Source: an uncultured Sphingomonadaceae bacterium (lineage in GTDB: Bacteria > Pseudomonadota > Alphaproteobacteria > Sphingomonadales > Sphingomonadaceae). Taken from it: 64,000 bases of DNA. The stretch is taken from contig CANMNF010000002.1 in assembly GCA_947499255.1 (NCBI GenBank), positions 136,430-200,429 of the forward strand, written 5' to 3'. Below, in pieces: positions 32,426 through 47,778 of this stretch (positions within the stretch are counted from its first letter, which is position 1; the number at the start of each line of letters is the position of its first letter). The notes beneath the pieces are model-generated. The model was not told the DNA's origin, did no database searches, and saw only the letters and a list, made by a program, of their open reading frames with translations. The translations under genes and the position numbers were made by a program.

Positions 32426-33256
32426 TTAAAAAGGCAGCCAACGCTGCTTTTTGGAAAACTTCATATAGCCGGCATTGACGCCCAGACGCAGCCCAGCACC
32501 AACGCGAATAGGGATCAGCACAACGCCCTCTTTGCGCAAGTAGCTGGCATTAAACCCACCCACAAAATAGGCCGCGCCTTCACCTGAGGGATAGCGTTCA
32601 TAAATCTGCTCGGTATCGTGCAAATTGTACACCAGCACAAAAGTGTTGCCAGCATTCGCGCCTGCATCAAAGCCAATCGAAGGCCCCGTCCAATAAATCG
32701 GCATATTGCCTTCGATGGCATGATGCAGCGTGCCCGAACCATACCGCAGGCCTACCACAAATGCGCCGCCGCCTTCGCGCCCAACGATATACCCATTGGG
32801 CTCACCCTGCTCTTCCAGAATATCTTCGATCAGACGCGCAAGACCTTCAGCCCCTTTGCCAAACAGCCCCTCGGCTTCACCGATCAAATCGTCCTTGGCA
32901 TAGGTATTGGGCGCAGGTTCAGCGGGTTCTGCTTGCGGAACTGGCAGAGCGCGCGGATCGGCGGGAATTGCGGCATCGCCTGTATACTCACCTGTATAAT
33001 CGCCCTGCTCGTAATCAGGCGCACTGTTTGGCGGCAATTCAGAATAGCGTGTTGATGGCGCTTCGGAAGCAGGATCATCATATTGAGAGGCGGCAGGTGC
33101 AGCAGAGCTTTCCCCCGCCAAATCGCCATCGATCATCACATCGGGATCAACCGTCTCAATCTGCTGCGCCATAGCAGGTGCGGTCAATATGCTAAGAGCA
33201 GCAAGGAACGTGGCAAAAACAGCGCCGCGCGATTTCAAAGCAAGTCCGGCAAACAT
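32426..33256 (-). CDS. EipA-type envelope protein (DUF1134)
   Basis: 276 residues. A signal peptide ends APAMAQQ, then comes a long, Pro/Ala/Asp-rich linker to about residue 130. The DUF1134 domain runs from about 145 to the end (PNGYIVGREGGGAFVVGLRYG, then PIYWTGPSIGFDAG, ASYLRKEGVVLIPIRVGAGLR). EipA supports cell-envelope integrity in Brucella and Caulobacter. The start at 33256 is set by AGGAG seven bases upstream; the in-frame ATG at 33400 adds no meaningful sequence. The linker is longer than I recall for relatives, which is an impression only. Confidence 0.88.
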   Translation of the reverse strand: MFAGLALKSRGAVFATFLAALSILTAPAMAQQIETVDPDVMIDGDLAGESSAAPAASQYDDPASEAPSTRYSELPPNSAPDYEQGDYTGEYTGDAAIPADPRALPVPQAEPAEPAPNTYAKDDLIGEAEGLFGKGAEGLARLIEDILEEQGEPNGYIVGREGGGAFVVGLRYGSGTLHHAIEGNMPIYWTGPSIGFDAGANAGNTFVLVYNLHDTEQIYERYPSGEGAAYFVGGFNASYLRKEGVVLIPIRVGAGLRLGVNAGYMKFSKKQRWLPF

Positions 33257-33470
33257 GGTATTCTCCTTCAGCGTGGCTGCCGCATAGCGATCAGCGAACA
33301 CGCACCCAGCCACCAAAAGAGTCCTCCGCGCCTGAAGCAGCAATGAACACGCGGTAACCTGAGTCCATTTCGCGCCGAGCTGAATCAAATCCCTACACAA
33401 ATTGCTTGGTTTTGCCCTCTTGTGGCGGGCAGGCCGTCTCGTTATAGCCCGCCACTTGCCGCACAGGTCC

Positions 33471-33562
33471 GGAGACGTGGGTGAGTGGCTGAAACCAGTT
33501 CCCTGCTAAGGAACCATACTTCTATCGAGGTATCGAGGGTTCGAATCCCTCCGTCTCCGCCA
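33471..33562 (+). tRNA. tRNA-Ser (GCT)
   Basis: 92 nt with a long variable arm (TACTTCTATCGAGGTA). It starts GGAGACGTGG and ends with encoded CCA; the anticodon is GCT in CTGCTAA. It is alone on its strand, between eipA (divergent) and the response regulator. Confidence 0.96.
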
Positions 33563-33854: not shown

Positions 33855-33872
33855 TTGTCATATGCGAGTCAT
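33855..33872 (+). promoter_or_regulatory. PhoB-box-like 11-bp direct repeat before the response regulator
   Basis: TTGTCAT-ATGC-GAGTCAT: two 7-base half-sites on an 11-bp period. It matches the E. coli Pho box CTGTCAT-AWAW-CTGTCAY at 11 of the 14 half-site bases. It ends 44 bp before the regulator start, a usual place for PhoB-type autoregulation. The link to phosphate is inferred from similarity. Confidence 0.5.
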
Positions 33873-33916
33873 TTATGCCCGGCAGACAGCACCTCGAAAC
33901 CGGGGTGACATCTGCC

Positions 33917-34591
33917 ATGCAACGCGTGACGATATTTACAACTGATCGCAAAGCCGCAGACTTTGAAGACTTTGTGCTGGATGACAGCACTTTCACTTTC
34001 ACTCGTCTTGATCCCGATGGAGCAAACGGATTGATCGATGGGCCGGTATGGGCGTTTATCGATTGGGTGCTTGAAGATTTGTCCGGCCTTGAGATGTGCC
34101 GCCGTTTGCGCACCTCTCCCAAGCTTGGCGAAGCACATATCACCATGGTTCTCGATGCCGATGACCCGGACGACATGCGCCGCGCGATCAAGGCTGGTGC
34201 GGATGATTATGTGACCAAACCATTGGATCGAAAGACAATCCTCGACAGAGTGTTGGCCTTATATGCAAGCGAGCGTCGCCACGGTTTGACGCAAGTGATT
34301 GATCTGGGCGATTTGCACATCAATGTGGCAGGGGAACAAGCGCGCTGGCAGGGGCAGCAAATACAATTGCGGCCCAATGAATTTCGCGTTTTGCGCTTTT
34401 TGGCTGAAAATCCCAACCGCGTGCTTTCCCGCCAGGAGCTTGTCGATGCACTCGGCAAATCGGGTGATCCGTCCTATCTGCGCACCGTAGATGTGTGGAT
34501 CAAACGTCTGCGCTTTGGTCTGCGCGATGTCGAGGCGGGCCATTTGCTGCGCACCGTTCACGGCAAGGGCTACGTGCTCGATATTCCCTGA
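33917..34591 (+). CDS. PhoB/OmpR-type response regulator with a non-canonical receiver
   Basis: 224 residues: a receiver (1-115) and a winged-helix DNA-binding domain (about 125-224; ANRVLSRQELVDAL-like core, then VDVWIKRLRF and RTVHGKGYVLDI). The phospho-acceptor Asp is present (FID49W) and so is the conserved Lys (K101 in TKPLD). The usual Thr/Ser of the LTA motif is replaced by Asp (VLD80A), so the switch may not follow the normal path. No histidine kinase gene lies nearby. The ATG at 33917 puts the first beta strand at the N terminus; an earlier ATG at 33874 is possible. The gene is convergent with the TonB receptor gene and faces an intrinsic terminator. Confidence 0.85.
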   Translation: MQRVTIFTTDRKAADFEDFVLDDSTFTFTRLDPDGANGLIDGPVWAFIDWVLEDLSGLEMCRRLRTSPKLGEAHITMVLDADDPDDMRRAIKAGADDYVTKPLDRKTILDRVLALYASERRHGLTQVIDLGDLHINVAGEQARWQGQQIQLRPNEFRVLRFLAENPNRVLSRQELVDALGKSGDPSYLRTVDVWIKRLRFGLRDVEAGHLLRTVHGKGYVLDIP

Positions 34592-34596
34592 ACAGC

Positions 34597-34627
34597 AAAA
34601 CGGCCCCTCACGCTTGTGAGAGGCCGT
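34597..34627 (-). terminator. Intrinsic terminator of the TonB receptor gene
   Basis: On the minus strand an 11-bp stem with one C-A mismatch (ACGGCC/GGCCGT and CTCAC/GTGAG) and a four-base loop is followed by TTTT. It lies between the convergent stop codons of the regulator and the receptor gene and may also help end regulator transcription. Confidence 0.75.
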
Positions 34628-34660
34628 CTAGAGTCGCCAGTGTTCGCAGATGCGCTTCGC

Positions 34661-37345
34661 TTAGAACTCGATGGAAAGCGATGCGCCAATGGTTGTGCCA
34701 ACATCATAGGTGTTGATTTCAAACCGATCCGTGCCGTTGGTCTGAAATTCTTCGTTCCCGCGGCCAAAGATATTGCGCGCTTCCAGCTTCAGCTCAGCAT
34801 CTCCGCCAAACATGGCGATCCCTTGCCGATATACCAGATCAACTGTCAGCCCGGGATCTTCCAGAATGTCGGGCAGGCCAGCGGTACCCCGGCTGGTCAC
34901 GCGGTCGCTTGAATAGTTCACCAGCACGGTGAATTGTTGCAAGCGATCAATATCCTCAAGGCTCATCTGGAAATTGGCCAGATGATCGGATTGCCCGGTC
35001 AGCGGGCGACCATCGACAAACAGATTGGTTGCCGGTGTTGCACCACCCGGGAAAAGCTGCGTGATATCATCTGTCTGCACAGAAATATCGGATTGCGTAT
35101 AGGTGTAATTGACTAGAGCGACCAATTCCTTGGTCGAGAAGAAACCGCCCATATCATACAATTCGAACGTGTATTGCGCATCGAATTCAGCACCATACAA
35201 AGTCGCGCTTGGCGCATTGGCAAAGCTGGTAAGCTGCGCATTGTCCGAGAAGGTCGAAAATGCCTCAATCGGATTTTCAATATCCTTGTAGAAGCCGGCC
35301 AGAGTGATCTTGTCGGGTCCACCAAAATAATATTCAACGCGGGCTTCGTAATTGGTCAGCTCGCTATCTACCAAAAGCGGATTGCCGTTGAATTGGCGGT
35401 TGGTTTCAGGGTCAAAATAGGTCTGAAAAATCAGCTCACGAAATTGCGGGCGTGCGATAGTTTTGGAAGCGCTGGCGCGCACCTGAAAATCAGGGATCGG
35501 CTCCCAAGTGACAGTCGCAGCAGGCAACCAGTAATCATTGGCAAGCAGGCTGGAGGAGCCAGAATTTACAGGCGTGGCAAACACTTCCACCGGATCAACC
35601 GATTGCTCGGCATCTTCATAACGCACGCCAACATCCAATTGGAGGCCCAGAACAGGCTCCCAATTGATTTTGCCGTATCCTGCATGAACCACCAACTCTG
35701 CCTGGAATGCGGGATCTGATGTGGTGGATTCGATCAAGCCGATATCAAACGCATCGATGATCGCATCGCCCAGTAGCAAATCGGGGCGCAACAGGCCCAC
35801 CGCATCGGGAAAGCTGGTTGGCGCATTGAACAAAAATTCGCGCCGCGTGGAGAAGCGATCAGTGTCATTATAGGCATAGCCAACCGTCAGCGCCATTGTA
35901 TCAAAAATGGGATAGCTAAAGTCGATCCCTGTTGACCACAGCTCTTCCTGCAGATCGGAAAACACCACCGAGGCATCGCCCGTTTGGCGATCCAGCACGT
36001 TGATAAACTGATCCGACAAGCTGCCTTGCGCATTATCGCGGACATAGGTGAAGGTGTACTCGAACGGTGCTTCGCGATTGGTGCGCGCATAGCCACCGCG
36101 CAGATCAACCGAGAGATCACCAAATTCAAGTTCACCCACGATTTGGGAATTCATCAACTGCCGTTCAAACCAGCCGGTTTGCTGCTGCTGAATGCTGTCA
36201 TCATCCTGAAAATCTTCGCCTTGGTTCAAGCTTGCCTGCTTAAGCGAATCGCGAATGAAAAGATTGGTCCAGCGGAAACGATGATCACCGATCTCCAGCC
36301 CAAAGCCGAGCAACGCATTCACCAAAACACGGTTGTCGGTCACCACATTGCGGAAATCATTATCGAGAGAGAAATCGGCCAGAATGGTTTGCGATGTGAT
36401 GTTGCGCGTACGCCATTTGTTGCTGACAGATGCGGTGGCAATAATGCCAAGACGGCCATCATCGCCCACATCCACCGCGGTGCCTGCGGTTATGCCACCA
36501 GACCAGTTCACAGGAACATCGCCCAGCTTTTGCAACAAGATCAGGTTCGGATCGCCAAGTTGTTTGGCAATGTCGAGTTGGGTAAAGCCAACCCCGGCGC
36601 TATCGGGCACGTTTTCATCGAGCGGTACATCGCTCAAACGCGCGCCGCTGTTGAAAAAGGTTTGCAGCGCGGGCGGAATATCGCGCGTGCCATCATCGAA
36701 ACCAACCCAGTCAAAATCAGACCCGTAAAACGCCAAGCCATTGCCCAGGGTTGTTTCGGTATCGCCGCTCACGCTGGAGCTGACTTTGATGAAACTTTCA
36801 TCGGGGATTGCGCGCGTGGTGAGGTTGATTACACCGCCGCCAAATTCACCGGGGAAGTTGGCCGAATAGGTTTTTTGCACCAGGCTTGATGCCACAACAC
36901 TGGTCGGGAAAATATCAAGCGGGACAACACGGCTAAGCGGCTGAGGCGATGGCAGCGACAAACCATTGAGCAAAGCCAGCGAATACCGATCACCAAGACC
37001 ACGCACGAAGACAAAGCCCTGACCTTGCACTGAAAGGCCCGTTACACGGCCCAATGCGCCAGCGATGTCGCCTTCGCCTGTCCGCGCGATTTGCTCAGTA
37101 GACAGAACGCTGACAACTTGCGCAGACCCTTGCGTCGGATCACGATTGATGCGGCCGGTCACAACAATGGTGTTGCCACCTGGAATAGAGATATCGGGTT
37201 GCTGGGGCGCTTCTTGCTGAACGTCCTCATCACCATCGATCTGTTCATCGGAAGACGCGTCCTGCGCCTGTGCCAAAGCGATGCCGGGAACGGTCATCGC
37301 GGTGGTGAGCAGGAGCAGCCCCGCCAGCTGCTTGCCAGTGGTCAT
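34661..37345 (-). CDS. TonB-dependent outer-membrane receptor (large)
   Basis: 894 residues. The signal peptide ends GIALAQAQ, followed by an acidic linker (about 30-50) and the TonB-box/plug start NTIVVTGRINRDPTQGSAQ. The plug has FVFVRGLGDRYSLALLNG and FGGGVINLTTRAI. The barrel is long and ends in Phe (GASLSIEF), as outer-membrane barrels do. It would import a substrate using energy from TonB-ExbBD. The same strand carries a large lipoprotein gene upstream with a 12-bp perfect hairpin in the gap, and a PhoB-type regulator faces it downstream. Substrate unknown; phosphate compounds are a guess from the operator-like repeats. Confidence 0.92.
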   Translation of the reverse strand: MTTGKQLAGLLLLTTAMTVPGIALAQAQDASSDEQIDGDEDVQQEAPQQPDISIPGGNTIVVTGRINRDPTQGSAQVVSVLSTEQIARTGEGDIAGALGRVTGLSVQGQGFVFVRGLGDRYSLALLNGLSLPSPQPLSRVVPLDIFPTSVVASSLVQKTYSANFPGEFGGGVINLTTRAIPDESFIKVSSSVSGDTETTLGNGLAFYGSDFDWVGFDDGTRDIPPALQTFFNSGARLSDVPLDENVPDSAGVGFTQLDIAKQLGDPNLILLQKLGDVPVNWSGGITAGTAVDVGDDGRLGIIATASVSNKWRTRNITSQTILADFSLDNDFRNVVTDNRVLVNALLGFGLEIGDHRFRWTNLFIRDSLKQASLNQGEDFQDDDSIQQQQTGWFERQLMNSQIVGELEFGDLSVDLRGGYARTNREAPFEYTFTYVRDNAQGSLSDQFINVLDRQTGDASVVFSDLQEELWSTGIDFSYPIFDTMALTVGYAYNDTDRFSTRREFLFNAPTSFPDAVGLLRPDLLLGDAIIDAFDIGLIESTTSDPAFQAELVVHAGYGKINWEPVLGLQLDVGVRYEDAEQSVDPVEVFATPVNSGSSSLLANDYWLPAATVTWEPIPDFQVRASASKTIARPQFRELIFQTYFDPETNRQFNGNPLLVDSELTNYEARVEYYFGGPDKITLAGFYKDIENPIEAFSTFSDNAQLTSFANAPSATLYGAEFDAQYTFELYDMGGFFSTKELVALVNYTYTQSDISVQTDDITQLFPGGATPATNLFVDGRPLTGQSDHLANFQMSLEDIDRLQQFTVLVNYSSDRVTSRGTAGLPDILEDPGLTVDLVYRQGIAMFGGDAELKLEARNIFGRGNEEFQTNGTDRFEINTYDVGTTIGASLSIEF

Positions 37346-37420
37346 GATCGGGATTCCCTCATGAGTCGATCCAAAGTCTGGCGAACAATTATGTCCGCCT
37401 TGAAAACAGGTAAGTAAGGC

Positions 37421-37452
37421 CGGGGCGCGCTGAACTGAAACAGCGCGCCCCG
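37421..37452 (-). other. Perfect 12-bp hairpin between lipoprotein and receptor genes
   Basis: The arms CGGGGCGCGCTG (37421-37432) and CAGCGCGCCCCG (37441-37452) are perfect complements around an 8-base loop. No T run follows on the minus strand, so it is unlikely to be a plain terminator. In the transcript it would cap the 3' end of the lipoprotein message or lower read-through to the receptor gene. Confidence 0.75.
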
Positions 37453-37466
37453 ATCTCTAAAGGTCA

Positions 37467-39065
37467 TTAAAAGACCGGTACGTCCAGGCAGCTGCCGGTA
37501 TTGTTACCAAAGGACACTGCCGAGCTGTCACAGGTCCAGCCCTGGGTCCAGTCATTGGAAGATGTTACCGCGCCAATGAAGGTCGTGGCTTCAAAGAAGG
37601 AGCCGAGCGTGGTCGCATCGAAGACTGTCGCGAACGTATCTTCGTTGGCACCGTTCAGGTAACCGCTGGTGATCGTGTTCATGAAAGTCTTGTTATTGCC
37701 AGCGCCAAGATCGAAGGCTGCCTCGGCCTGCGCCGCAGTGGTCCCGCTGCTTCCGTCGCGGAAGTTCCCGCTGCTGGTTGCACCATCACAATCCAGCGCC
37801 ACAGAATTGAAGCGCGGCGGGCCAACATCGTCCAGTCCGGCATCAGCTGCGCGCAGCGTTTCAGAAAGGTCAATGCGGATACAAGGCGTACCGTTGGCAG
37901 AAGCGTCCCAGATCACGGTATTGTACAGACCATAATCAGTACCGCCACGGATGCGGACAACCTGATCATCATCCTTACGCTGGATGAAGGTGGCGTTTGC
38001 AATAGTCGTATTTTGACGCGGGGTTTGATCCTGCAAGCCGTTATTGGAATCGGCTTCGATAATTGTGTCACCAATTCCGGCGCGTTGTGCTGCGATAACG
38101 AATTGCAGGTTCGTCTTCACACCGGTGTCGGTATCGATGGAATCATCTTCTGCACCCGCAACGATCAGGTTCTTGATGTTGACGAAGCCGCCGAAGAATT
38201 CAACGCCATCATCCGATGAGTTGACCGATTGAATGTTGGAAAGCGTCGTGCCTGTACCTGTGCCGCCTGTGGTCAGCGATTGCAGCTCGCTATCGCCAGA
38301 AAGAACAAAGCCGGAGAAGCGGATCTGCACAAAGCTCATCGAACCGGAGCTGTCATCATTGGTTGCGCCGCCAAAGAAGTTTGGCTGTGCAGCGCCTTCA
38401 ACCTGACGTTCACAATCAATCGTGCCTGGTGTTGCGAGCGCCTGGAAACAATCGGTAACCGGTGCGCGGCCTGAAAGGACAATGCCGCCCCACTGGCCCG
38501 AGCTATCAGCATTGTTGATGCCCAGAATATTGTCGCGGCTGGTAAAGATGATCGGAAGGTCAGCTGTACCGTTTGCGTCAATTGAGTTGCCGCGCGTCAC
38601 ATTGAGAAACGAGGAGCCAGCGGCGTAAACGATAACGCCTGGTTCAATCGTCAGTTCAACATCGGTGTCACTCAGGCCATCGCTATTGTCAGGCGTTGGG
38701 CCACCGTCCGTGCCGATGCTGGTTTGGCCGGGCAGTCGATACAACAAGCCTGGAATACGTGCGAGTGTAGATGAAGCGTTGAGGCGCTCTGGCAAAGCAC
38801 AAACGCGCCACTCGCCTTCGGGACCGGTAATAGTGCCTTCATCGGCCAGACCTTGAGGGTCAGAAATTGTCGGGCAGCCATTGGCCGGTGTCACAAGCGC
38901 CTGTGTCGGCGTTGGTGTCGGCGTAGGCGCCGGTGCGTTGATGACGTCGCCTTCATTGATGGTCACATTGCCACCAGTGCCGGGCGAGGCGATTTCTTCT
39001 GGGCCACAGGCGGCGAGCGCCATAATCGAGCAGCCAAGTACGAGAGAACGAGATAGGTTAGTCAC
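37467..39065 (-). CDS. Large lipoprotein, likely surface-exposed with a beta-helix fold
   Basis: 532 residues from a GTG at 39065, which has AGGGGA ten bases upstream. The signal ends ALAAC, giving a lipidated Cys about 20 residues in. A short linker has a PTPTPTPT repeat. The body has segments such as LPIIFTSRDNILG, SGQWGGIVLSGRAPVTD and GVEFFGGFVNIKNLIVAG, typical of right-handed beta-helix proteins, and several Cys pairs. The upstream TTG frame to 39098 lacks a ribosome-binding site. It was not matched to a named family, but its TonB-receptor partner suggests substrate capture at the surface. An operator-like site lies about 79-96 bp upstream. Confidence 0.75.
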   Translation of the reverse strand: MTNLSRSLVLGCSIMALAACGPEEIASPGTGGNVTINEGDVINAPAPTPTPTPTQALVTPANGCPTISDPQGLADEGTITGPEGEWRVCALPERLNASSTLARIPGLLYRLPGQTSIGTDGGPTPDNSDGLSDTDVELTIEPGVIVYAAGSSFLNVTRGNSIDANGTADLPIIFTSRDNILGINNADSSGQWGGIVLSGRAPVTDCFQALATPGTIDCERQVEGAAQPNFFGGATNDDSSGSMSFVQIRFSGFVLSGDSELQSLTTGGTGTGTTLSNIQSVNSSDDGVEFFGGFVNIKNLIVAGAEDDSIDTDTGVKTNLQFVIAAQRAGIGDTIIEADSNNGLQDQTPRQNTTIANATFIQRKDDDQVVRIRGGTDYGLYNTVIWDASANGTPCIRIDLSETLRAADAGLDDVGPPRFNSVALDCDGATSSGNFRDGSSGTTAAQAEAAFDLGAGNNKTFMNTITSGYLNGANEDTFATVFDATTLGSFFEATTFIGAVTSSNDWTQGWTCDSSAVSFGNNTGSCLDVPVF

Positions 39066-39143
39066 AGCGTGCGGTCCCCTGAAAAAACCGAGAATCAAAA
39101 AGGTCGAATGCGATGTCGCAATTCAGGCTGCTAGGGATGGCAC

Positions 39144-39161
39144 ATGACAGTTTGTTTGCAG
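39144..39161 (-). promoter_or_regulatory. PhoB-box-like operator before the lipoprotein gene
   Basis: On the minus strand CTGCAAA-CAAA-CTGTCAT: two half-sites on an 11-bp period, the second a perfect Pho half-site. The same 18 bases recur at 39299-39316 with three differences. It lies about 80 bp before the lipoprotein start, where a PhoB-type activator would bind. Confidence 0.55.
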
Positions 39162-39298
39162 TTTGGATATTTCACTCAAATGAACATCAATCGGGACTGA
39201 ACAAACAGGCGTGTGAATATGCGCTAAGGGACAGAACGAGGGCGTTTTCTGGTCGGATTGATCGGACCAAAAGAATATTGTTTCTGTTTTGTGACAAT

Positions 39299-39316
39299 AT
39301 GACAGTTTTGTTGCAT
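39299..39316 (-). promoter_or_regulatory. Second operator-like copy before the TPR gene
   Basis: On the minus strand ATGCAAC-AAAA-CTGTCAT, 15 of 18 bases as at 39144-39161. It lies 50-67 bp before the TPR gene start, in the shared divergent region, so one regulator could control both genes. It reads toward the lipoprotein gene, so for the TPR gene its orientation is reversed. Confidence 0.5.
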
Positions 39317-39365
39317 TTGGTGCTTTTGAGGTTCATTTCTCCGTTATTGATAAGGGAGAATTGAT

Positions 39366-39734
39366 ATGAGCATCATGACCGCACTTGGCGTTTTGCTGCT
39401 GGCCCAAGCCTCTCCGGGAGCAACGGCCGAACAAGCGACTGATACCAAAAATGCTGCGTTTGAAGAAATTAGCGCAGGCGAAAACCGCGAAGCGATTGCC
39501 ATGCTGGAAATGGCTCTGACCGATAACCCCGATGATCCGGCACTGCTGATCAATCTGGGATCTGCTTATGCAGAATTAGGCGAATATGATCAGGCCGCGC
39601 AATATTACCGTGCTGCTGCCAAAAGCGGTGTTCGCTATCGCCTTGAACTGGCTGATGGTGAATGGGTGGATTCCCGCCGTGCTGCCCGCGTTGCGCTTTT
39701 GCGCCTTGAAGAACGTGCGCTGGCCATGCGTTAA
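39366..39734 (+). CDS. Small exported TPR-repeat protein
   Basis: 122 residues. A short hydrophobic N terminus (MTALGVLLLAQASPGATA) serves as signal peptide. Two tetratricopeptide repeats follow: NREAIAMLEMALTDNPDDPA and PALLINLGSAYAELGEYDQA-type. The C-terminal part has the basic run DSRRAARVALLRLEERALAMR. An AGGGAG ribosome-binding site lies seven bases before the ATG. It is divergent from the lipoprotein gene, shares its operator region and has its own intrinsic terminator. It may bind a partner in the periplasm, perhaps in the same uptake system. Confidence 0.82.
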   Translation: MSIMTALGVLLLAQASPGATAEQATDTKNAAFEEISAGENREAIAMLEMALTDNPDDPALLINLGSAYAELGEYDQAAQYYRAAAKSGVRYRLELADGEWVDSRRAARVALLRLEERALAMR

Positions 39735-39756
39735 GCGATTGCTTTTACCTCTATGG

Positions 39757-39793
39757 AAGGGCCTGTAGTGTTTATCGCACTGCGGGCCCTTTT
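39757..39793 (+). terminator. Intrinsic terminator of the TPR gene
   Basis: The stem AAGGGCC / GGCCCTT is extended by paired TAGTG / CACT(G), with a loop of about seven bases and TTTT after it. It lies 23 bases after the TPR stop codon. Confidence 0.75.
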
Positions 39794-39887
39794 CATTTGC
39801 GCCTATATATAAGGCAGCTTGCGCGGCTGGGACTGTCACGCGGCTGTCATTTGTTGTAAGCAGTAGGGCTGCTTTAGAAGGGTCCAC

Positions 39888-40520
39888 ATGATTCTGCGCG
39901 CCATCATCTCTGCCACAGCCTGTGCGCTGGCGCTTGCCAGTGCATCGTCGGCGCGGGCCGATGTGCTGGAAATCGGCACGGATGGAGAGGTACTGTGGAT
40001 TGCAGGTGAAGCTGCTGGCCAAGGTCTGATTTCCGCTCCTGTAGAATTGGAAGAAGTGCCTGCCGAAGCGCTTGCTCTTATCCCCGAGAATGCCGTGGGC
40101 GATAGCGCGGCCACGCAAACGGGCATTCCTGCCCAATATGCAGAATATGTGCGCGAACTCGCGATCCGGTTTGATCTTAGCCCGGCGCTTATCGAAGCCG
40201 TTGTCTGGCAGGAAAGCCGTTGGCGCGAAAACGCGGTTTCGCCCGCTGGCGCGCGCGGCCTTGCGCAATTGATGCCGGGGACGGCCCGCGATCTGGGCGT
40301 GGATGCCGATGATCCGCGCGCCAATCTTGAAGGCGGCGCACGCTATTTGCGCGAACAGCTTGACCGGTTTGACGGCGATCTGGAAAAAGCGCTGGCCGCT
40401 TATAATGCCGGGCCGGGCCGCGTGATCCGTGCCAATGGCATTCCCCAAATCCGCGAAACGCGGGCCTATGTGGCCAGCATTATGGGCCGCTTATCTGATT
40501 ATTCCCGGAGTACTGAATAA
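39888..40520 (+). CDS. virB1: VirB1-like lytic transglycosylase
   Basis: 210 residues. A signal peptide ends SSARADVL. The transglycosylase domain (about 85-205) has the catalytic Glu in VVWQESRWRENAVSP, then GLAQLMPGTARDLG and AYNAGPGRV. It would cut peptidoglycan to let the secretion channel through. It is first in an eight-gene virB row and is followed by virB2 after 2 bp. General periplasmic lytic transglycosylases look alike, so the virB1 name rests on gene order. Confidence 0.85.
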   Translation: MILRAIISATACALALASASSARADVLEIGTDGEVLWIAGEAAGQGLISAPVELEEVPAEALALIPENAVGDSAATQTGIPAQYAEYVRELAIRFDLSPALIEAVVWQESRWRENAVSPAGARGLAQLMPGTARDLGVDADDPRANLEGGARYLREQLDRFDGDLEKALAAYNAGPGRVIRANGIPQIRETRAYVASIMGRLSDYSRSTE

Positions 40521-40522
40521 AT

Positions 40523-40813
40523 ATGTCTGTCTTTTCCCGTATCGCTGCTTTCGCGGTGCTGCTTATGCCGACCGCCGCCTTTGCCCAGGACCCGCAAGGC
40601 TCTGGCCCGATTGTGGCAGCACTTGCCTGGATGCAGAACACGCTGCTCGGCTCTGTCGCGACGGCAGTTGCGGTGATGGCTGTGGCCGCGGTTGGTTTTA
40701 TGATGCTGACAGGCCGGATGAACTGGCGCTTTGGTGCAACGGTTATTATTGGCTGCTTCATCCTGTTTGGCGCAGCATCTATCGTGGCTGGCATTCAAGG
40801 CGCGGCGAGCTAA
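40523..40813 (+). CDS. virB2: VirB2/TrbC-type pilin
   Basis: 96 residues: a signal peptide (cleaved near TAAFAQDP) and two hydrophobic helices (VATAVAVMAVAAVGFMML and FGATVIIGCFILFGAASIV) around a short basic loop (TGRMNWR). This is the layout of VirB2 pilins. They form the extracellular pilus and the channel tip. Confidence 0.88.
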   Translation: MSVFSRIAAFAVLLMPTAAFAQDPQGSGPIVAALAWMQNTLLGSVATAVAVMAVAAVGFMMLTGRMNWRFGATVIIGCFILFGAASIVAGIQGAAS

Positions 40814-40819
40814 ACGCAG

Positions 40820-41104
40820 ATGGCCAATCTTGTCCGTCACCGCGTGCACCGCGCACTCACCCGGCCACAAATGTTTGCTGGCGTCACGATGAATTTCTTT
40901 ATCATCAATATGATGGTGACAACGATTGCCTTTTTGATCCTGAAAAGCTTCTGGATCGTTCCGATACCGATCATAATGCATGGCATCGGTTATTTGGCGA
41001 GCTTACGCGAACCGCGCATTTTTGATCTGTGGATCACCAAGGTTTCACAATGTCCGCGCATCAAGAATTACAAACACTGGGGTTGCAACAGCTATACTGG
41101 CTGA
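40820..41104 (+). CDS. virB3: VirB3-like inner-membrane protein
   Basis: 94 residues with two membrane spans close together (VTMNFFIINMMVTTIAFLIL and IVPIPIIMHGIGYLASL), then the polar tail REPRIFDLWITKVSQCPRIKN. VirB3 pairs with VirB4 at the base of the channel. It lies 6 bp after virB2 and 52 bp before virB4. Confidence 0.85.
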   Translation: MANLVRHRVHRALTRPQMFAGVTMNFFIINMMVTTIAFLILKSFWIVPIPIIMHGIGYLASLREPRIFDLWITKVSQCPRIKNYKHWGCNSYTG

Positions 41105-41156
41105 GCGCCCATGTATTGAACCGCCGCGCAAATGATCGCGCGGCATGGAGCATGAA

Positions 41157-43622
41157 ATGACAACCCAAGGCCCCGGCAAATGGCCCGGTAAATGGCTGGG
41201 AGCTGCCGCATGGAGCGCTAAAGAAGCGCATGCCGGTGATCGCCTGCCTTATGCGCGGTTGGTTGATGGCGATGCGTTATTGCTGCGCGATGGCGCTTTG
41301 ATGGGCGCATTGCAGGTGCCCGGCCTGCTGTTTGAAACAGAAGATACTGACGCTTTGAATGCCCATGCGGCAACGCGCGAAGTTATGCTGCGCAGCAATC
41401 TTGATGCGCGTTTCGTTATGTATCATCACGTTATTCGGCGGCGCGTCAGTGTCGAACTGAACGCGCAGTTCGATGATCCGCTTTCCGCCCACATCGATGC
41501 ACGCTGGCGGGAAAAACTCTCTTCCGGTGCGCTGTTTGTAAACGATCAATTTATCACGCTGGTACGCCGTCCTGCGCGCGGCAAAGCGGGCCTTGCTGAA
41601 CGCATGGGCAAGTTCTTCAAGAAACGCGCGATCGAAGGGGACGATGTTGATCCTAAGGATCTGCGCTCACTTCGTGCCGCGTTGCAGGCATTGGCCGCAA
41701 GTTTGGGCGATTATGGTGCGCAGCCGCTGGGCGATTATGACGGACCAAGCGGGGCGACCAATAACGAACTGCTCGAATTGCTTTCTGCGATCTATAATGG
41801 CGAAATGCGCCCTGTGCGCCGCCCCGATGATGCAACAGATATCGGCCATATGTTGCCTTATCGCCGGGCCAGTTTTGGCCTTGATGCGATGGAATCGCGC
41901 GGTGCTGGCGGGGTGGATTTCGGCTCAATGTTGAGCCTGAAGGATTATCCTGACGCAACCAGTCCCGGCCTGCTCGATGCGATGTTGCGCCTGCCGTTTG
42001 AAATGATCGTGTGCGAAACTTTCGCACCTATCGAACGGCAAACCGCGCGCGAACGCATTGATCTGGCGATCCGCCGCTTGCGATCTGCGGATGAAGATGC
42101 GCGCGCTGAGCGTGAAGAAATGATGGCCGCGCGCGATGAACTGGGCGCAGGCTCGGTTAGCTTTGGCGATCATCACCTCTCCGTTCTGGTGCGGGAAAGC
42201 GATCTGGAGCGTCTGGACGATGCCACCGCCGCTGTTTCTGCCAGCCTATCGGATACCGGCGCGATTGTGGTGCGCGAAGATACCAATCTGGAGCCTGCTT
42301 TCTGGGGTCAATTCCCCGGTAATGAGCAATATCTGGTGCGCCAGTCGATGATCTCGACAGCCAATATGGCAAGCTTTGGCAGCTTGCACGGCTTTGCTTT
42401 GGGCCAAGCTGAAGGCAATCATTGGGGCGATGCCGTCACGCTGCTGCAAACCACCAGTTCAACGCCGTTCTTCTTCAATTTCCACAATGGCGATCTGGGC
42501 AATTTCTCGGTTATCGGGCCGTCTGGTTCGGGCAAGACGGTGGTGATGAATTTCCTCGCCGCGCAAGCGCAGAAATTTTCACCCCGCACCATATTGTTTG
42601 ATAAAGATCGCGGCGCGGAATTGTTCATTCGCGGCATTGGCGGCGACTATGAACGTATCAATGCAGGCGCGCCCACCGGCTTTAATCCGCTCGCTTTGCC
42701 CGATAACCCAGTTAATCGCGCTTTCTTGCGTGATTGGCTTTCGGTTCTGCTGAATGCGCAAGGCCCCGAAGAAAGCGCCACCATCGCTACCGCAGTCGAT
42801 GCCGCATACGCCAATGATGCAAGCTTGCGCCGTCTGCGGCATTTCAAGGAGCTGCTTTCCGGCACCCGCCGTCCGCAGCCCGGTGATCTGGCAGACAGGT
42901 TGGCTGCGTGGATTGATAATGGGGAGCATGGCTGGCTGTTTGATAACGAAACGGACCGGCTTGACCTTACCACCCGCGTGATGGGTTTTGACATGACCGC
43001 GCTGCTGGAAAATCCCAAGCTCCGCACGCCCACCATGATGTATCTGTTCCACCGCATTGATGAACGGCTCGATGGTCAACCGACCATGATCCTGATTGAT
43101 GAAGGGTGGAAAGCGCTCGATGATGAGGTGTTCGCCGCGCGCATTCGCGATTGGCTCAAAACCTTGCGTAAACGCAACGCACTGGTCGGTTTTGCCACGC
43201 AAAGCGCGCGTGACGCTTTGGACAGCAAAATCTCCACCGCGCTGGTAGAGCAAACTGCCACGATGGTGTTCATGCCCAATGCCCGCGCGCGCGCTGAGGA
43301 TTATTGCGATGGCTTTGGCCTGACCGATCATGAGCTGGCGCTGATCCGAAGCCTGCCTGCGCATAGCCGCTGCTTCCTTGTGCGACAGCCCGATGCCAGC
43401 GTTGTTGTGCGCCTTGATCTGTCTGACGCGCCCGAAGTGTTGACGATCCTTTCTGGCCGGGAAAGCTCTGTGCGGCGGCTTGATCTGCTGCGCGAAGCAG
43501 TGGGCGATGATCCGGCGCAATGGTATCCCGCTCTCACCAATCGCCGCTGGCCCGGCGATGCGCCGCCCAAAGGCATCGCCACAGGTGCCGATGACAATCT
43601 CAATTGGGAAGCTGCCGAGTGA
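41157..43622 (+). CDS. virB4: VirB4 ATPase of the type IV secretion channel
   Basis: 821 residues. The N-terminal half (to about 400) is the VirB4 CagE/TrbE domain. The C-terminal RecA-like domain has Walker A GPSGSGKTVVMNF and Walker B TMILIDEGWKALDD, then GFATQSARDAL. VirB4 powers channel and pilus assembly from the inner membrane. The start at 41157 was preferred to 41145 because GGAG lies five bases before it. The next gene overlaps the stop by GTGA at 43619. Confidence 0.94.
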   Translation: MTTQGPGKWPGKWLGAAAWSAKEAHAGDRLPYARLVDGDALLLRDGALMGALQVPGLLFETEDTDALNAHAATREVMLRSNLDARFVMYHHVIRRRVSVELNAQFDDPLSAHIDARWREKLSSGALFVNDQFITLVRRPARGKAGLAERMGKFFKKRAIEGDDVDPKDLRSLRAALQALAASLGDYGAQPLGDYDGPSGATNNELLELLSAIYNGEMRPVRRPDDATDIGHMLPYRRASFGLDAMESRGAGGVDFGSMLSLKDYPDATSPGLLDAMLRLPFEMIVCETFAPIERQTARERIDLAIRRLRSADEDARAEREEMMAARDELGAGSVSFGDHHLSVLVRESDLERLDDATAAVSASLSDTGAIVVREDTNLEPAFWGQFPGNEQYLVRQSMISTANMASFGSLHGFALGQAEGNHWGDAVTLLQTTSSTPFFFNFHNGDLGNFSVIGPSGSGKTVVMNFLAAQAQKFSPRTILFDKDRGAELFIRGIGGDYERINAGAPTGFNPLALPDNPVNRAFLRDWLSVLLNAQGPEESATIATAVDAAYANDASLRRLRHFKELLSGTRRPQPGDLADRLAAWIDNGEHGWLFDNETDRLDLTTRVMGFDMTALLENPKLRTPTMMYLFHRIDERLDGQPTMILIDEGWKALDDEVFAARIRDWLKTLRKRNALVGFATQSARDALDSKISTALVEQTATMVFMPNARARAEDYCDGFGLTDHELALIRSLPAHSRCFLVRQPDASVVVRLDLSDAPEVLTILSGRESSVRRLDLLREAVGDDPAQWYPALTNRRWPGDAPPKGIATGADDNLNWEAAE

Positions 43623-44812
43623 ACGGTATTGCCGCCTGTCAACAAGCCATGGAAGGCGTGGGCGCTGGCATTGGCGCGAGTTTGCGCGGTGTCGATTGTG
43701 CTGCGTCCGCGATGGCGCAGGCGGCGTTTAACAACATTTTTTCCGAAGGCAGCGCATTTGGCCCGATCCTGACGATCAGCCTTGTCCTGTTTGTTGCCTT
43801 TATTGGTTTCGGCATGATTACCGGGCGCCTGCCTATCCGCATGTCGTCCTTCACGCCTAAAATGGTGACACTGATCGCGGTTGTGACTTTCGCCACCAGC
43901 TGGTTCATATTTCAAACGATCTTCTGGAATCTTGCCGTGCTTGGCCCGGACTGGATTGCCAGCACGATTATGGGCACCGATGGTTCGGCCACCACGATTT
44001 TTGCTGATAAGCTCGATATCGTGATGCTGTCCTTGATGGAAGCATCGGGCGGTGATGCGATGGACAATGACACCTCGATTTTCTCACCGCCCGGATTGCT
44101 GTGGTCTGGCGGCACGATGTTGCTGCTGGGCACTGTGGGCGTTCTGGCGACATGCAAGATCGCGCTGGCCATCCTGATGGGATTGGGGCCGATCTTTATT
44201 CTGATGGCGTTGTTCGATGGCACGCGCGGCTTGTTTGTCGGGTGGCTCAAAGGCGTTGTGCTACTGGCCCTTGCCCCGCTTTTTGCCGTGATCGGTGGAT
44301 CGCTCATGCTGGAGCTGGCCATTCCTGTGCTTGCCAGCTTGATGGAAACGCCCGGACGCATTGATGTGCGGCCAGCCATGGCGTTCTTTATGATTGGCGC
44401 TGTACATTTGGCGCTGATGTTCATGGTGCTCAAAGTCGCTACCACGATGGTAACCGGGTGGAGCGTGTTTGGTCTGGCGCGCGGTCAAATCGACGATGGC
44501 CCAGCTAACGCAGCGCCTGGCTCGGCAACAATGCGCGGCGCACCGCCCGCGACCTTTGCCAACACCAATGCCAGCCAGCGCAATGCCGCCAGTTCGCCAG
44601 CGCCCGGCCGCGATATCCGGGTCACGGCCAATTCACCTTCACCCGCCAATGATACAGGCGGCAGCACCAGCGTAACGCGCGAAACGCGCATTATCGCTGG
44701 AGGCTCAGCCGCCACATCGGGCGAACCAAGCCCATCGAACAGCAATCGCGCGCGCGGCATAGGCAGCCGGTTCCGCTCTGCCCCCGCGCGCAATACGGAG
44801 AGAACCCAATGA
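43619..44812 (+). CDS. virB6: VirB6-type inner-membrane channel protein
   Basis: 397 residues from a GTG that overlaps the virB4 stop (GTGA). Five or six membrane spans cover about residues 40-290, including LTISLVLFVAFIGFGMITG and VLLALAPLFAVIGGSLMLEL. A soluble tail rich in Ala, Pro, Ser and Asn follows. VirB6 helps form the inner-membrane pore for substrate transfer. Its end overlaps virB9 by ATGA. Confidence 0.87.
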   Translation: MNGIAACQQAMEGVGAGIGASLRGVDCAASAMAQAAFNNIFSEGSAFGPILTISLVLFVAFIGFGMITGRLPIRMSSFTPKMVTLIAVVTFATSWFIFQTIFWNLAVLGPDWIASTIMGTDGSATTIFADKLDIVMLSLMEASGGDAMDNDTSIFSPPGLLWSGGTMLLLGTVGVLATCKIALAILMGLGPIFILMALFDGTRGLFVGWLKGVVLLALAPLFAVIGGSLMLELAIPVLASLMETPGRIDVRPAMAFFMIGAVHLALMFMVLKVATTMVTGWSVFGLARGQIDDGPANAAPGSATMRGAPPATFANTNASQRNAASSPAPGRDIRVTANSPSPANDTGGSTSVTRETRIIAGGSAATSGEPSPSNSNRARGIGSRFRSAPARNTERTQ

Positions 44813-45576
44813 TCCGTGAGAGTATTTCCACTCTCTTTCTCGCGACCGCCTTGGTTGCCATGCCCGCCAAGGCCGATGATCCGCGCCTGGTGGAACGGCT
44901 GTATGATCCGGCGCAAATTGTCACCGTGCAAGGCCGCGTGAATGTTCAATCGACCATCCGGTTTGACGATGATGAGATGATCGAAAACGTCGCCATTGGC
45001 GATAGCCAGAAATGGCAGGTCACTCCCAATCGCCGCGCCAATTTGTTGTTCGTCAAACCGCTGGCCCCGCGTGCGGCCACGAACATGACCGTGGTAACCA
45101 GCAAACACACCTATCTGTTCGATCTGATCGCCAGTCCCAATCATCGTTCCCCGCTATATGTGCTCACCTTCATCTATCCCGAAGTGGAAGCAGAAGAGCC
45201 GGAATTGACCGAGAATGAAGCCGACGGGCCAAACGCGATTGAGCTGGCCGCAGCAAATGACGATCTGGCGGTGCTTGATCCCACTATGCTCAATCGCCAA
45301 TGGGCCAAGATGGGCGATGCTGTTCTGCATCCCAGCGATATTTATGACAATGGCGATGTCACATTCATGGCGTGGCCAACAGATGCGCCCATGCCGGCTA
45401 TTCTGGTGAAAGATGAAGCGGGCACCGAAGGCCCTGTAAATTTTGCAGTACGCGGTGATACAATTGTTCTGGATAGCGTGCCGCGCGAAATCGTTCTGCG
45501 TTCTGGCGAGGATGTCGCCACACTTGTTAATCAAGGCCCAATGGGGGCCCGTCAAACAGCCGGAAATGGCGGCTGA
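44809..45576 (+). CDS. virB9: VirB9-type core-complex protein
   Basis: 255 residues. A signal peptide ends AMPAKADD. The N-terminal domain starts DPRLVERLYDPAQIVTVQGR and goes on to GDSQKWQVTP and NMTVVTSKHTYLFDL. The C-terminal beta domain ends near VLRSGEDVATLVNQ. VirB9 forms the outer-membrane-spanning ring with VirB10 and normally binds the small lipoprotein VirB7. No Cys follows its own signal peptide, and no virB7 gene was found next to it. Confidence 0.92.
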   Translation: MIRESISTLFLATALVAMPAKADDPRLVERLYDPAQIVTVQGRVNVQSTIRFDDDEMIENVAIGDSQKWQVTPNRRANLLFVKPLAPRAATNMTVVTSKHTYLFDLIASPNHRSPLYVLTFIYPEVEAEEPELTENEADGPNAIELAAANDDLAVLDPTMLNRQWAKMGDAVLHPSDIYDNGDVTFMAWPTDAPMPAILVKDEAGTEGPVNFAVRGDTIVLDSVPREIVLRSGEDVATLVNQGPMGARQTAGNGG

Positions 45577-45603
45577 TGATATGCACTGGCTGAGGAAAAG
45601 CTG

Positions 45604-46722
45604 ATGAAACTTGCCATGCGACTGCCTGAAAAAAACGGCGCCGTTGATACAGCCGATGTCGATCCGCGCGATGAAGCGACAACCGAGGTGATCGACCTTG
45701 CCAGCCGCACATCCTATCCCGCCGTCGCCAATCGCAAAGGCGGTTCGGATGCGCTTGGCTTGTTTGCGGGTATTGCTTTTGTGGCAATGCTTGGCGCGGC
45801 GACTTTGTGGGGTCTCAACGCGGGTGGAGATACGGCTGCAGACGATGAAGCTTTAACGCAAGAGCCTGCCCCGCCGCCTGTGCAAACAGCTACCGCGCCA
45901 TCACCCATCTCCAACTTGCCCAGCGCCAATGCGCAAGTCGCCGATCCAGTGCCTGCGCCTGTTCTGGCCCGGGCGCCCACAGTGCAAACGGGGCCTGTCA
46001 CCAATCCCTATTCCTCCCCCACCTTGGTGTTTGATGGCGCGCCAGCACCAAGCACTGTCACAGCTGCCAGTGTCGATGCGGCAACTGCCAATCCCACCAC
46101 TGCACCGGGTGGCGGCGCAGCGGGTGAATTTGCTGCGCGCGTTGGCGGTGTTGGCGGCGGACCAGCACTGGCCCGGCAAGACGTCAATCCCACCACCACG
46201 GTGACGCAAGGCACGATGATCCCGGCCATTCTGGAAACCGCGATCAACACCGATGTGCCCGGTTTCGTGCGTGCGGTGGTGAGCCAGGATGTGCGTTCTT
46301 ATGATGGCAGCACCATTCTTGTCCCGCGTTCCAGCCGTCTGGTCGGCCAATATCAATCAGGCCTGCAAGCAGGGCAAAAGCGTGTTTATGTGATCTGGAC
46401 GCGGGTTATTCGGCCCGATGGTGTTTCTGTTTCTTTGGGCAGCCCCGCTACGGGTTTTGACGGCACCACCGGCCTTGCTGGCGATGTCGACAATCACTTT
46501 TTCTCCCGGTTTGGATCGGCCATGCTCCTGTCTGTGATCGGCGGTCTGACGACTGTTGCCAGCGGCGGGACTTCGGTTGTGCTGGGCGGCGGACAAAGCG
46601 CGGCAACCACCGCTTTGCAACAAGATGGCCAGCGCCCCCCGACCATCCGTGTCAAAATGGGTGAGCCGGTGCGTGTCTACACCGCGCGCGATCTTGATTT
46701 CAGTTTGGCGCCCAAGATCTGA
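45604..46722 (+). CDS. virB10: VirB10-type core-complex protein
   Basis: 372 residues: a cytoplasmic tail of about 50, one membrane span (LGLFAGIAFVAMLGAATLWG), a long Pro/Ala-rich periplasmic stretch (about 75-195), then the TrbI-type beta-barrel domain. That domain starts TTTVTQGTMIPAILETAINTD and holds SRLVGQYQSGLQAGQKRVYV and VRVYTARDLDFS. VirB10 links the inner-membrane ATPases to the outer-membrane ring. It lies 27 bp after virB9. Confidence 0.93.
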   Translation: MKLAMRLPEKNGAVDTADVDPRDEATTEVIDLASRTSYPAVANRKGGSDALGLFAGIAFVAMLGAATLWGLNAGGDTAADDEALTQEPAPPPVQTATAPSPISNLPSANAQVADPVPAPVLARAPTVQTGPVTNPYSSPTLVFDGAPAPSTVTAASVDAATANPTTAPGGGAAGEFAARVGGVGGGPALARQDVNPTTTVTQGTMIPAILETAINTDVPGFVRAVVSQDVRSYDGSTILVPRSSRLVGQYQSGLQAGQKRVYVIWTRVIRPDGVSVSLGSPATGFDGTTGLAGDVDNHFFSRFGSAMLLSVIGGLTTVASGGTSVVLGGGQSAATTALQQDGQRPPTIRVKMGEPVRVYTARDLDFSLAPKI

Positions 46723-46731
46723 TCTGCGTCC

Positions 46732-47778
46732 ATGTCTGCTGATATTCATCCTCTGCCCGATTCGCTTGCACCTGAAAATCTCGCCACGCAGGCGGCGGTG
46801 AAAGAACCGCAGATCATTGCCGGCTCTGTCTATCTTGATGCTTATCTTGCGCCATTTCGCGATTGGTTGGAACGCGATACCGTTACAGAGATTTTGGTGA
46901 ACCAGCCGGGCGAGGTGTGGATTGAAGACGCCGCCAGCCCCGGCATGCAGCGGATTGAAGACCCCTCAATTGATGACAAGCTGATCCAGCGCCTTGCCGA
47001 ACAAGTCGCGCGGGTCAGCCATCAGGGCATCAACCGTGAACATCCCTTGCTTGGCGCGACCTTGCCTGCCGAAGAATTTGGCGGCGCGCGTATTCAGTTT
47101 TGCGGACCGCCTGCGACGCGCAAGCATTGGGCGCTGGCTATCCGCCGTCATCGCCGGCTCGATCTGCCGCTGGATGCTTACGACACCGGTCCGCTGCATG
47201 CGATGGCAGAGCAATCTATGCCCGATCCGGTGGAACAACCCATCCCATTCTTGCGCGCGGCCATCGCGGCCAGAAAAACCATCCTGATTTCCGGCGGTAC
47301 ATCGACGGGTAAAACAACCTTCCTCAACGCCATGCTGGGTGAAATTCCGCGCGAAGAACGCGTCGTGCTGGTCGAAGATACACCGGAACTGAAATTCCCC
47401 GGCGCCAATGGCGTGGGCCTTGTCGCGGTGAAAGGTGAATTGGGCGAGGCGAAAGTTGGCGCAAACGAATTGTTGCAATCCGCCTTGCGGCTGCGCCCTG
47501 ATCGCATCGTGCTTGGTGAATTGCGCGGCGCGGAAAGCGTCTCCTTCCTGCGCGCAATCAATACTGGCCACCCCGGCAGCTTCTCGACAATTCACGCAAA
47601 CAGCCTTCGCGGCGCGTTGGAACAGCTGTCGCTCATGGTCATGCAAACCGGCATCGGTCTCACCCGCTCTGACACGATAGCTTATGCCTCCAGCGTCATT
47701 GATGTAATCGTCCAATTGGGCCGCAGTGAAGGCAAGCGCGGCATCACCGCAATCGCGCGTGCCAAGGATATTGCCTGA
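46732..47778 (+). CDS. virB11: VirB11-type hexameric ATPase
   Basis: 348 residues. The N-terminal domain has DWLERDTVTEILVNQPGEVW. The C-terminal ATPase domain has Walker A ISGGTSTGKTTFLNAML, the Asp box VVLVEDTPELKF, Walker B LRLRPDRIVLGELRGAE and the His box TGHPGSFSTIHANS. It switches the channel between pilus building and export. It is last in the virB row; a stretch with two weak hairpins (47783-47804 and 47868-47887) separates it from ppk1. Confidence 0.93.
   Translation: MSADIHPLPDSLAPENLATQAAVKEPQIIAGSVYLDAYLAPFRDWLERDTVTEILVNQPGEVWIEDAASPGMQRIEDPSIDDKLIQRLAEQVARVSHQGINREHPLLGATLPAEEFGGARIQFCGPPATRKHWALAIRRHRRLDLPLDAYDTGPLHAMAEQSMPDPVEQPIPFLRAAIAARKTILISGGTSTGKTTFLNAMLGEIPREERVVLVEDTPELKFPGANGVGLVAVKGELGEAKVGANELLQSALRLRPDRIVLGELRGAESVSFLRAINTGHPGSFSTIHANSLRGALEQLSLMVMQTGIGLTRSDTIAYASSVIDVIVQLGRSEGKRGITAIARAKDIA

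Follow-up and report, generated by a model that had tools for sequence, protein, structure and literature searches.

To what signal do an orphan response regulator, a TonB-dependent receptor, a beta-helix lipoprotein and a small tetratricopeptide repeat (TPR) protein answer, when their genes lie side by side among operator-like sites? The question is raised by a 64,000-nucleotide stretch of contig CANMNF010000002.1 from an uncultured Sphingomonadaceae bacterium (hereafter the window, G000:C2:136430-200429 of a 2.96 Mb source genome in six contigs). We propose, with moderate confidence, that the locus is a Pho-regulated ElpS unit in which the type II exporter has been replaced by a reduced VirB apparatus. 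The larger point lies beyond the interval that holds the four genes (33855..39793): a VirB operon with its own Pho box stands where relatives carry a type II secretion system (T2SS).

In the mechanism we envisage, low phosphate would probably lead the housekeeping PhoB, encoded in a pst operon at another place in the genome, to bind the boxes ahead of the orphan regulator gene, in the lipoprotein-TPR intergenic region and ahead of virB1, switching on the ElpS-family lipoprotein, the TPR protein and the reduced VirB type IV secretion system (T4SS). The receptor gene lies behind the lipoprotein gene and ppk1-ppx behind virB11, within what would be one phosphate-starvation unit. The surface lipoprotein would mobilise a phosphorus source and the receptor would import the product. 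As for the orphan regulator, it is most likely itself under Pho control and tunes these promoters instead of being the primary sensor, and it may recognise similar half-sites; VirB most likely holds the place of the T2SS, having taken over export of the lipoprotein or of co-secreted enzymes.

Gene cluster and Pho-box-like sites

The genes of the locus are as follows.

33917..34591, plus strand: orphan OmpR/PhoB-family response regulator with a pseudo-receiver (Pfam Trans_reg_C 1e-19, partial Response_reg)
34661..37345, minus strand: TonB-dependent receptor, CC0171-like (Pfam plug and barrel; TIGR01782 under its cut-off)
37467..39065, minus strand: putative ElpS-family surface lipoprotein, lipobox LAAC, right-handed beta-helix
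39366..39734, plus strand: small TPR protein with a signal-like N-terminus (Pfam TPR_16, TPR_19)
39888..40520, plus strand: virB1-like lytic transglycosylase (Pfam SLT 1.7e-26)
40523..47778, plus strand: virB2, virB3, virB4, virB6, virB9, virB10 and virB11 (Pfam TrbC, VirB3, CagE_TrbE_VirB, TrbL, CagX, TrbI and T2SSE)
47922..51616, plus strand: ppk1-ppx, directly after virB11 (Pfam)

An eipA-like gene and tRNA-Ser precede the regulator, so that the order in the window runs eipA-like, tRNA-Ser, regulator, receptor, lipoprotein, TPR, virB1, 2, 3, 4, 6, 9, 10, 11, ppk1, ppx. Among 18 same-genus loci, eipA and tRNA-Ser (32429-33562) stand beside the regulator only in L046; the flank varies and the unit stays. 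Regulator, receptor, lipoprotein and TPR gene were found together in 17/17 same-genus loci whose contig covers all four, and in relatives they are followed by virB1, 2, 3, 4, 6, 9, 10, 11, usually then by ppk1-ppx. The same VirB layout was seen in five named Erythrobacteraceae loci (Erythrobacter L199, Pelagerythrobacter L215 and L231, Qipengyuania L218, Altericroceibacterium L226). Of two further loci named to that family, L223 (Alteriqipengyuania) has the regulator and no VirB within the examined stretch, and L232 (a Caenibius metagenome-assembled genome, MAG) has gspD at the locus, the VirB layout not being seen there.

Five putative regulatory elements lie between these genes.

33855..33872, plus strand: Pho-box-like operator before the orphan regulator, TTGTCAT-ATGC-GAGTCAT, score 11/14
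39131..39136, minus strand: candidate -10 element (CCTAG-like) of the lipoprotein promoter, just downstream of a Pho half-site
39144..39161, minus strand: Pho-like box of the lipoprotein promoter, CTGCAAA-CAAA-CTGTCAT, conserved 0.85 (n=19), score 11/14
39279..39316, minus strand: composite Pho-like element in the lipoprotein-TPR intergenic region, with relatives showing four half-sites, conserved 0.89 to 0.90 (n=19)
39833..39850, plus strand: perfect Pho box upstream of virB1, CTGTCAC-GCGG-CTGTCAT, the sole 14/14 match in 64 kb

An earlier, sequence-only reading of this DNA had described two 18-bp sites in the lipoprotein-TPR region and a related site before the regulator. All three lie exactly where it placed them: 39144-39161 (ATGACAGTTTGTTTGCAG) and 39299-39316 (ATGACAGTTTTGTTGCAT) are identical at 15/18 positions and conserved in 19 genomes, and 33855-33872, which reads TTGTCATATGCGAGTCAT with half-sites spaced 11 bp, is conserved in 18. 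A pair matching at 15/18 also arose in 3/200 dinucleotide shuffles of the intergenic region, so the pair by itself is weak evidence; that the sites exceed chance rests on their conservation in 18 to 19 same-genus genomes. Upstream of the regulator (18 genomes), identity at 33856-33873 was 0.78 against a median of 0.57, only the coding start ranking higher, and GTCA-N7-GTCA aligned in 18/18. The median 18-mer identity of the lipoprotein-TPR region (19 genomes) was 0.66, and the two most conserved 18-mers, 39292-39309 (0.90) and 39279-39296 (0.89), both fall in the TPR-side element; the next two, 39061-39078 (0.88) and 39048-39065 (0.86), lie at the start of the lipoprotein gene, and 39145-39162 (0.85) follows them. 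The perfect box before virB1 is present in 17/18 same-genus relatives and missing in L040, where no VirB genes follow and which is excluded from the 18-mer conservation figure for that region.

In relatives, the TPR-side composite has the consensus TTGCA-N6-TGACA-N3-TGACA-N6-TTGCA, of which the second 18-mer (39299-39316) forms the right half. The window copy has a degraded outer left half-site, and its lipoprotein-side site is without the extra half-site found in relatives. Plus-strand TAGG at 39131-39136 aligns in 19/19 genomes, and a comparable layout occurs at several same-genus porin promoters; this position may therefore be the -10 element of the lipoprotein promoter.

The E. coli-type Pho box is an 11-bp direct repeat with the consensus CTGTCAT-N4-CTGTCAY. 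We scored sites out of 14 against this consensus and compared the scores with those of shuffled sequence. The consensus is fully matched at 39833-39850, and the remaining window sites are near matches (11/14 on stricter scoring), a score attained by 7/380 control chunks of 250 nt from the source genome. Same-genus means were 11.2 against 8.65 shuffled in the regulator region (n=18), 10.7 against 9.1 in the lipoprotein-TPR region (n=19) and 12.3 against 8.6 in the TPR-virB1 region (n=19, including L040 at 8). Across 40 loci of other genera, the regulator region averaged 10.9 against 9.2 (n=22), the lipoprotein region 11.5 against 9.3 (n=32) and the virB1 region 12.6 against 9.2, with at least 12 in 19/21. 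Among 80 named loci scored, 42 type II loci averaged 11.43 upstream of the lipoprotein against 9.06, reaching at least 12 in 21/42 loci and in 0.36% of shuffles, and 33 whose stretch contains no gspD and no VirB4 averaged 10.94 against 9.16 (including the miscut L238).

A strict-pattern scan of the source genome gave 5 matches against 1 in the control. Three precede porin/pst, the regulator and virB1; the other two, C2:277338 and C4:19054, lie within frames called by a simple longest-ORF listing and were discounted as chance. The first of these boxes, TGTCATTTGGCTGTCAT, belongs to a Porin_O_P gene at the head of the pst-phoU-phoB run. The window sites thus resemble Pho boxes, as judged from the scores in the same and other genera together with the genome's own PhoB and boxed Porin_O_P gene. 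The tandem repeats of OmpR/PhoB type suggested by the sequence-only reading are accordingly borne out, as is the conservation of the motif at orthologous loci, seen both in same-genus alignments and in cross-genus scoring. That the sites are merely promoter elements or chance repeats appears very improbable: half-sites could double as -35 elements and the shuffles did yield such pairs, but neither accounts for position-specific conservation in 18 to 19 genomes or for the cross-genus scores.

We also considered two operator classes, one for PhoB and one for the orphan regulator. This division was rejected: same-genus porin boxes, such as CTGTCACAAAACCGTAAT (L095), are close to the TGCAA-type sites, and the classes merge. 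A first regular expression for porin promoters was too strict and matched 4/21 loci, the remainder being read by eye. Strict expressions gave no match upstream of six out-of-family lipoproteins.

PhoB and the orphan regulator

Which protein would bind these sites? The sequence-only reading had made the orphan regulator the controlling factor. Its best NCBIfam match is indeed to PhoB (TIGR02154), at 131.9 bits against a cut-off of 296.2, so the possibility that it is PhoB itself was rejected; the genome's true PhoB (347.3 bits) is encoded elsewhere, in one run with PhoU and Pst genes. The regulator departs from the receiver residues of a typical response regulator (Asp, acidic pair, Thr/Ser, Lys): across its orthologues, the phosphoacceptor Asp is present in 38/40, Thr/Ser in 0/40 and Lys in 1/40, and the acidic position corresponding to PhoB D12 is D in 18/40. 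The Lys (window 34200-34240) is kept by the window's regulator alone and is absent from the other 39/40. Three Arg at positions that contact DNA in PhoB are kept in 40/40, and the His at a further contact position is Trp in 40/40, so DNA specificity may differ from that of PhoB. A Pfam scan of the regulator's neighbours in the window gave no kinase gene. Together these features suggest a PhoB paralogue with a degenerate receiver, perhaps a modulator of the same promoters.

The distribution of the regulator was followed in an order-wide table of 247 genomes at least 90% complete. Its counts comprise 68 clear orthologues (E 2e-57 or better) and 7 borderline rows, 41-48% identical (G217, G117, G145, G253, G115, G131, G180); rows at 34-40% are PhoB-like and were excluded. 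The clear orthologues (68/247) all fall within the window's family. The lipoprotein is present in 66/68 of these genomes and the regulator lies within 15 kb of it in 64 of those; in all, the two are within 15 kb in 66/71 order genomes having both. In L122 (G179), whose genome has no lipoprotein, a regulator orthologue is found some 4 kb from gspD.

Most T4SS loci also retain the regulator together with the lipoprotein-receptor pair, as do G113, G178 and G209, where gspD lies elsewhere. This, the Arg trio and the site before the regulator's own gene in 18/18 genomes would fit a self-regulated local unit in which the regulator, not PhoB, is the main binder and the signal is maybe other than phosphate. 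We consider this rather unlikely. Boxes remain in the 42 type II loci, where no orphan regulator was seen within the examined stretch, and a virB1 box scoring at least 12 was found in 5/7 regulator-less VirB genomes examined (G129, G118, G039, G106, G134), the other two, G163 and G177, scoring 9 to 10 and both lacking the lipoprotein. Counted by lipoprotein status, the box is present in 3/3 regulator-less VirB genomes with it and 2/4 without. The source genome's porin/pst promoter has the same kind of box, and the His-to-Trp change at the contact position is universal in the 40 orthologues. As most of the checked genomes without the regulator still have boxes, PhoB is favoured, and housekeeping PhoB is the likelier binder on present sequence evidence.

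The sequence-only reading thus stands for its tandem sites, its gene cluster and its pairing of a beta-helix lipoprotein with a receptor, and its phosphate theme is likely right; what did not hold is the identity of the regulator. It had pointed to ppk1-ppx as fitting that theme, a remark strengthened by the position of the pair directly behind virB11, in the same order and direction in 12/15 other genomes (of the remaining three, one has the pair inverted and in two it was not seen). The virB11-ppk1 gap gave no Pho box (best score 9/14), and C. crescentus ppk1 is described, in the part of PMC11208175 that concerns it, as phosphate-regulated and outside the PhoB regulon. That reading did not mention the composite element, the perfect virB1 box, the VirB operon as a member of the unit or the relationship to ElpS.

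VirB operon and type II secretion

The lipoprotein has 38-39% matches in Caulobacteraceae, and the order lipoprotein-receptor-gspD occurs in Phenylobacterium (L190, L221) and Brevundimonas (L191, L201) as well as in Hyphomonas and Sphingopyxis. According to passages of PMC2996285, C. crescentus has cc0170 (elpS)-cc0171-gsp, S. alaskensis and H. neptunium have a similar organisation, and in C. crescentus the ElpS family has links to both phosphate starvation and type II secretion. Sequence likeness and gene layout put the window's pair in the ElpS/CC0171 family. The receptor adjoins the lipoprotein in nearly all fetched loci holding both flanks. The TPR gene adjoins the lipoprotein gene in the majority of T4SS loci and in some T2SS loci, and was undetected in L132 and L148; its product may be exported. 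A search of solved structures with the lipoprotein sequence gave only a match at E 0.22, judged chance, and Foldseek gave one match at E <= 0.001 with a low TM-score, which supports the beta-helix class only.

Several lipoprotein homologues depart from this pattern. Those outside the family (L050-L054 and other families) are for the most part tandem two-domain proteins, about 900 to 1000 residues long; the receptor adjoins them in 4/5 of the loci L050-L054. Matches with one or two in-frame stops (G242, G132, G148, G249, G214, G229) all belong to genus g14 and are perhaps decaying copies. The pair also occurs in a Steroidobacteraceae MAG (L207) and a Rhizobium sp. MAG (L229), and the lipoprotein in an Arenimonas MAG (L227), through either horizontal transfer or binning error.

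In the window's genus, gspD was above its cut-off in 0/19 genomes, including the source genome (three are less than 90% complete), so the lipoprotein is homologous to ElpS but is not the T2SS-linked form. For these counts gspD was accepted only above the curated cut-off, excluding weaker secretins in G194 and G220 (277-279 bits), and a VirB4 orthologue was defined by at least 64% identity, matches at 38-57% being assigned to other T4SSs. Among 144 family genomes with the lipoprotein, 74 have VirB4 only, 69 gspD only, 1 both (G050) and 0 neither (Fisher's p 5e-41, ancestry ignored). The distance to the lipoprotein is at most 15 kb for VirB4 in 66/75 genomes with both, and for gspD in 48/70. The C. 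crescentus T2SS is placed within the PhoB regulon, in which the PHO box has a role, in the portion of PMC11208175 that treats it; VirB would thus occupy the same regulatory place.

Ancestry was addressed with a lipoprotein-receptor tree of 56/65 loci (64 fetched plus the window), each having both proteins over half length and a secretion label; G012, with no VirB at the locus, was unlabelled. On this tree the label requires four changes (forced by starred branches), as compared with 16.1 when labels are shuffled; counted separately, VirB needs 4, T2SS 3 and the regulator 5. It is unlikely, though a view to be taken seriously, that the complementarity is a by-product of ancestry, one or a few lineages having lost the T2SS and gained VirB with no functional exchange. 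An independent-pairs test found only 4 pairs (3 opposite, 1 tie; p 0.25), and 32/37 VirB rows fall in one clade; against this, genus g27 contains both states, the starred branches force four changes, and every sampled family genome that has the lipoprotein has at least one of the two systems. As four changes are too few for a significant pairs test, the exchange pattern is suggestive, not proven.

Within the operon, the VirB4 ATPase and the VirB6, VirB9 and VirB10 channel parts were identified with Pfam. None of the operon proteins scanned gave VirB8, VirD4 or a relaxase, a VirB8 too divergent for Pfam being conceivable. The genome's only Pfam VirB8 is at C2:38571, beside another VirB4, and none of its four VirD4-like places lies within the window. 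That second T4SS (G000:C2:38571-42702) comprises VirB8 and a VirB4 of 51% identity with one in-frame TGA.

VirB could instead be a separate system, for DNA uptake as a phosphorus source or for contact-dependent delivery, merely sharing Pho control and neighbourhood; we regard this as possible but doubtful. A VirB4 orthologue occurs without the lipoprotein in 6 genomes, 2/4 of those checked retaining the Pho box, and in 9/75 genomes with both, VirB4 is on a different contig or farther than 15 kb away from the lipoprotein. Yet the complementarity with gspD holds in those 9 too, the scanned operon is without VirB8, VirD4 or relaxase, and Caulobacter type II secretion lies in the PhoB regulon (in the same part of PMC11208175). 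Four loci, L134, L135, L136 and L137, have the VirB operon and no lipoprotein-receptor pair in the stretch; their virB1 Pho box scores 12/14 in L134 and L136 and 9 to 10 in L135 and L137.

The Ptl system is not known to have a VirD4. According to passages of PMC12857230, VirD4 is absent from some T4SSs, and Ptl transports its substrate out of the periplasm, a precedent for export of periplasmic cargo by a VirB machine. Among the intact systems named for Erythrobacter sp. 3-20A1M in the relevant passage of PMC9723273 are T4SS, Sec-SRP and Tat, with T2SS not among them.

Several points weigh against a Pho-controlled exchange of exporters. Export by VirB faces a real difficulty in that no recognisable VirB8 is present, and with VirB8 and VirD4 both missing from the operon a working channel is not assured. 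Besides the pairs test and the 6 genomes with VirB4 alone, gspD occurs without the lipoprotein in 12. T2SS and T4SS are both overrepresented in Qipengyuania (Erythrobacteraceae) according to a passage of PMC9241875, which does not fit mutual exclusion unless the T2SS label there covers other secretins. ElpS-family homology was judged from Caulobacteraceae members that lie beside a receptor and gsp genes, and the passages of PMC2996285 on the C. crescentus locus report cc0171 as constitutive by RT-PCR and no change in intracellular phosphate. Lipoprotein-side boxes are imperfect (10 to 13/14); five Caulobacteraceae lipoprotein promoters reach 8 to 10 only (L191, L201, L210, L216, L228), and the scored search before the six out-of-family lipoproteins gave 7 to 11/14. 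In some loci the best match is a neighbour's box (in G255, the virB1 box), and before the regulator it differs from the aligned site in 3/18 (L040, L044, L048).

We nevertheless favour a Pho-regulated unit with VirB in the exporter's place. More tentatively, it may be that in Erythrobacteraceae and relatives a reduced, VirD4-less VirB replaced the T2SS as the PhoB-controlled exporter of the ElpS family, several times in one family, while cargo, receptor and Pho control stayed. If so, the locus would be a natural case of one cargo and its regulation persisting while the trans-envelope machine was swapped for an unrelated one; it would also give a conserved VirB operon a function and tie a T4SS to the phosphate starvation response. 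Among the papers listed by the literature searches we recognised none that treats Pho control of a T4SS or describes this Erythrobacteraceae VirB operon; the passages of PMC9241875, PMC9723273 and PMC10040529 that name T2SS or T4SS genes make no such connection, the last of them giving VirB3, VirB4, VirB8/TrbF, VirB9 and TrbI clusters in a halotolerance table.

Comparison with known systems

Like E. coli-type Pho boxes, the window sites are 11-bp direct repeats of CTGTCAT-like half-sites upstream of genes, in a genome that encodes PhoB; they differ in that several have a degenerate TGCAA half-site and the composite element combines 8 and 11 bp spacing. The orphan regulator shares with PhoB the Arg that contact DNA there, but falls below the TIGR02154 cut-off and belongs to a family in which the receiver Lys and Thr/Ser are lost.

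The window operon resembles VirD4-less VirB-type T4SSs in comprising VirB1-4, 6 and 9-11 with no coupling protein, and its proposed substrate would likewise be periplasmic. Unlike them, it is without a detected VirB8, is conserved across the family and carries a Pho box, and its proposed substrate would be a surface lipoprotein of the cell itself. With the ElpS (CC0170)-CC0171-T2SS locus of C. crescentus, the window shares a lipoprotein and adjoining TonB-dependent receptor of a homologous family and a link to phosphate starvation; its pair, however, is followed not by gsp genes but is accompanied by a VirB T4SS, an orphan regulator and a TPR gene instead.

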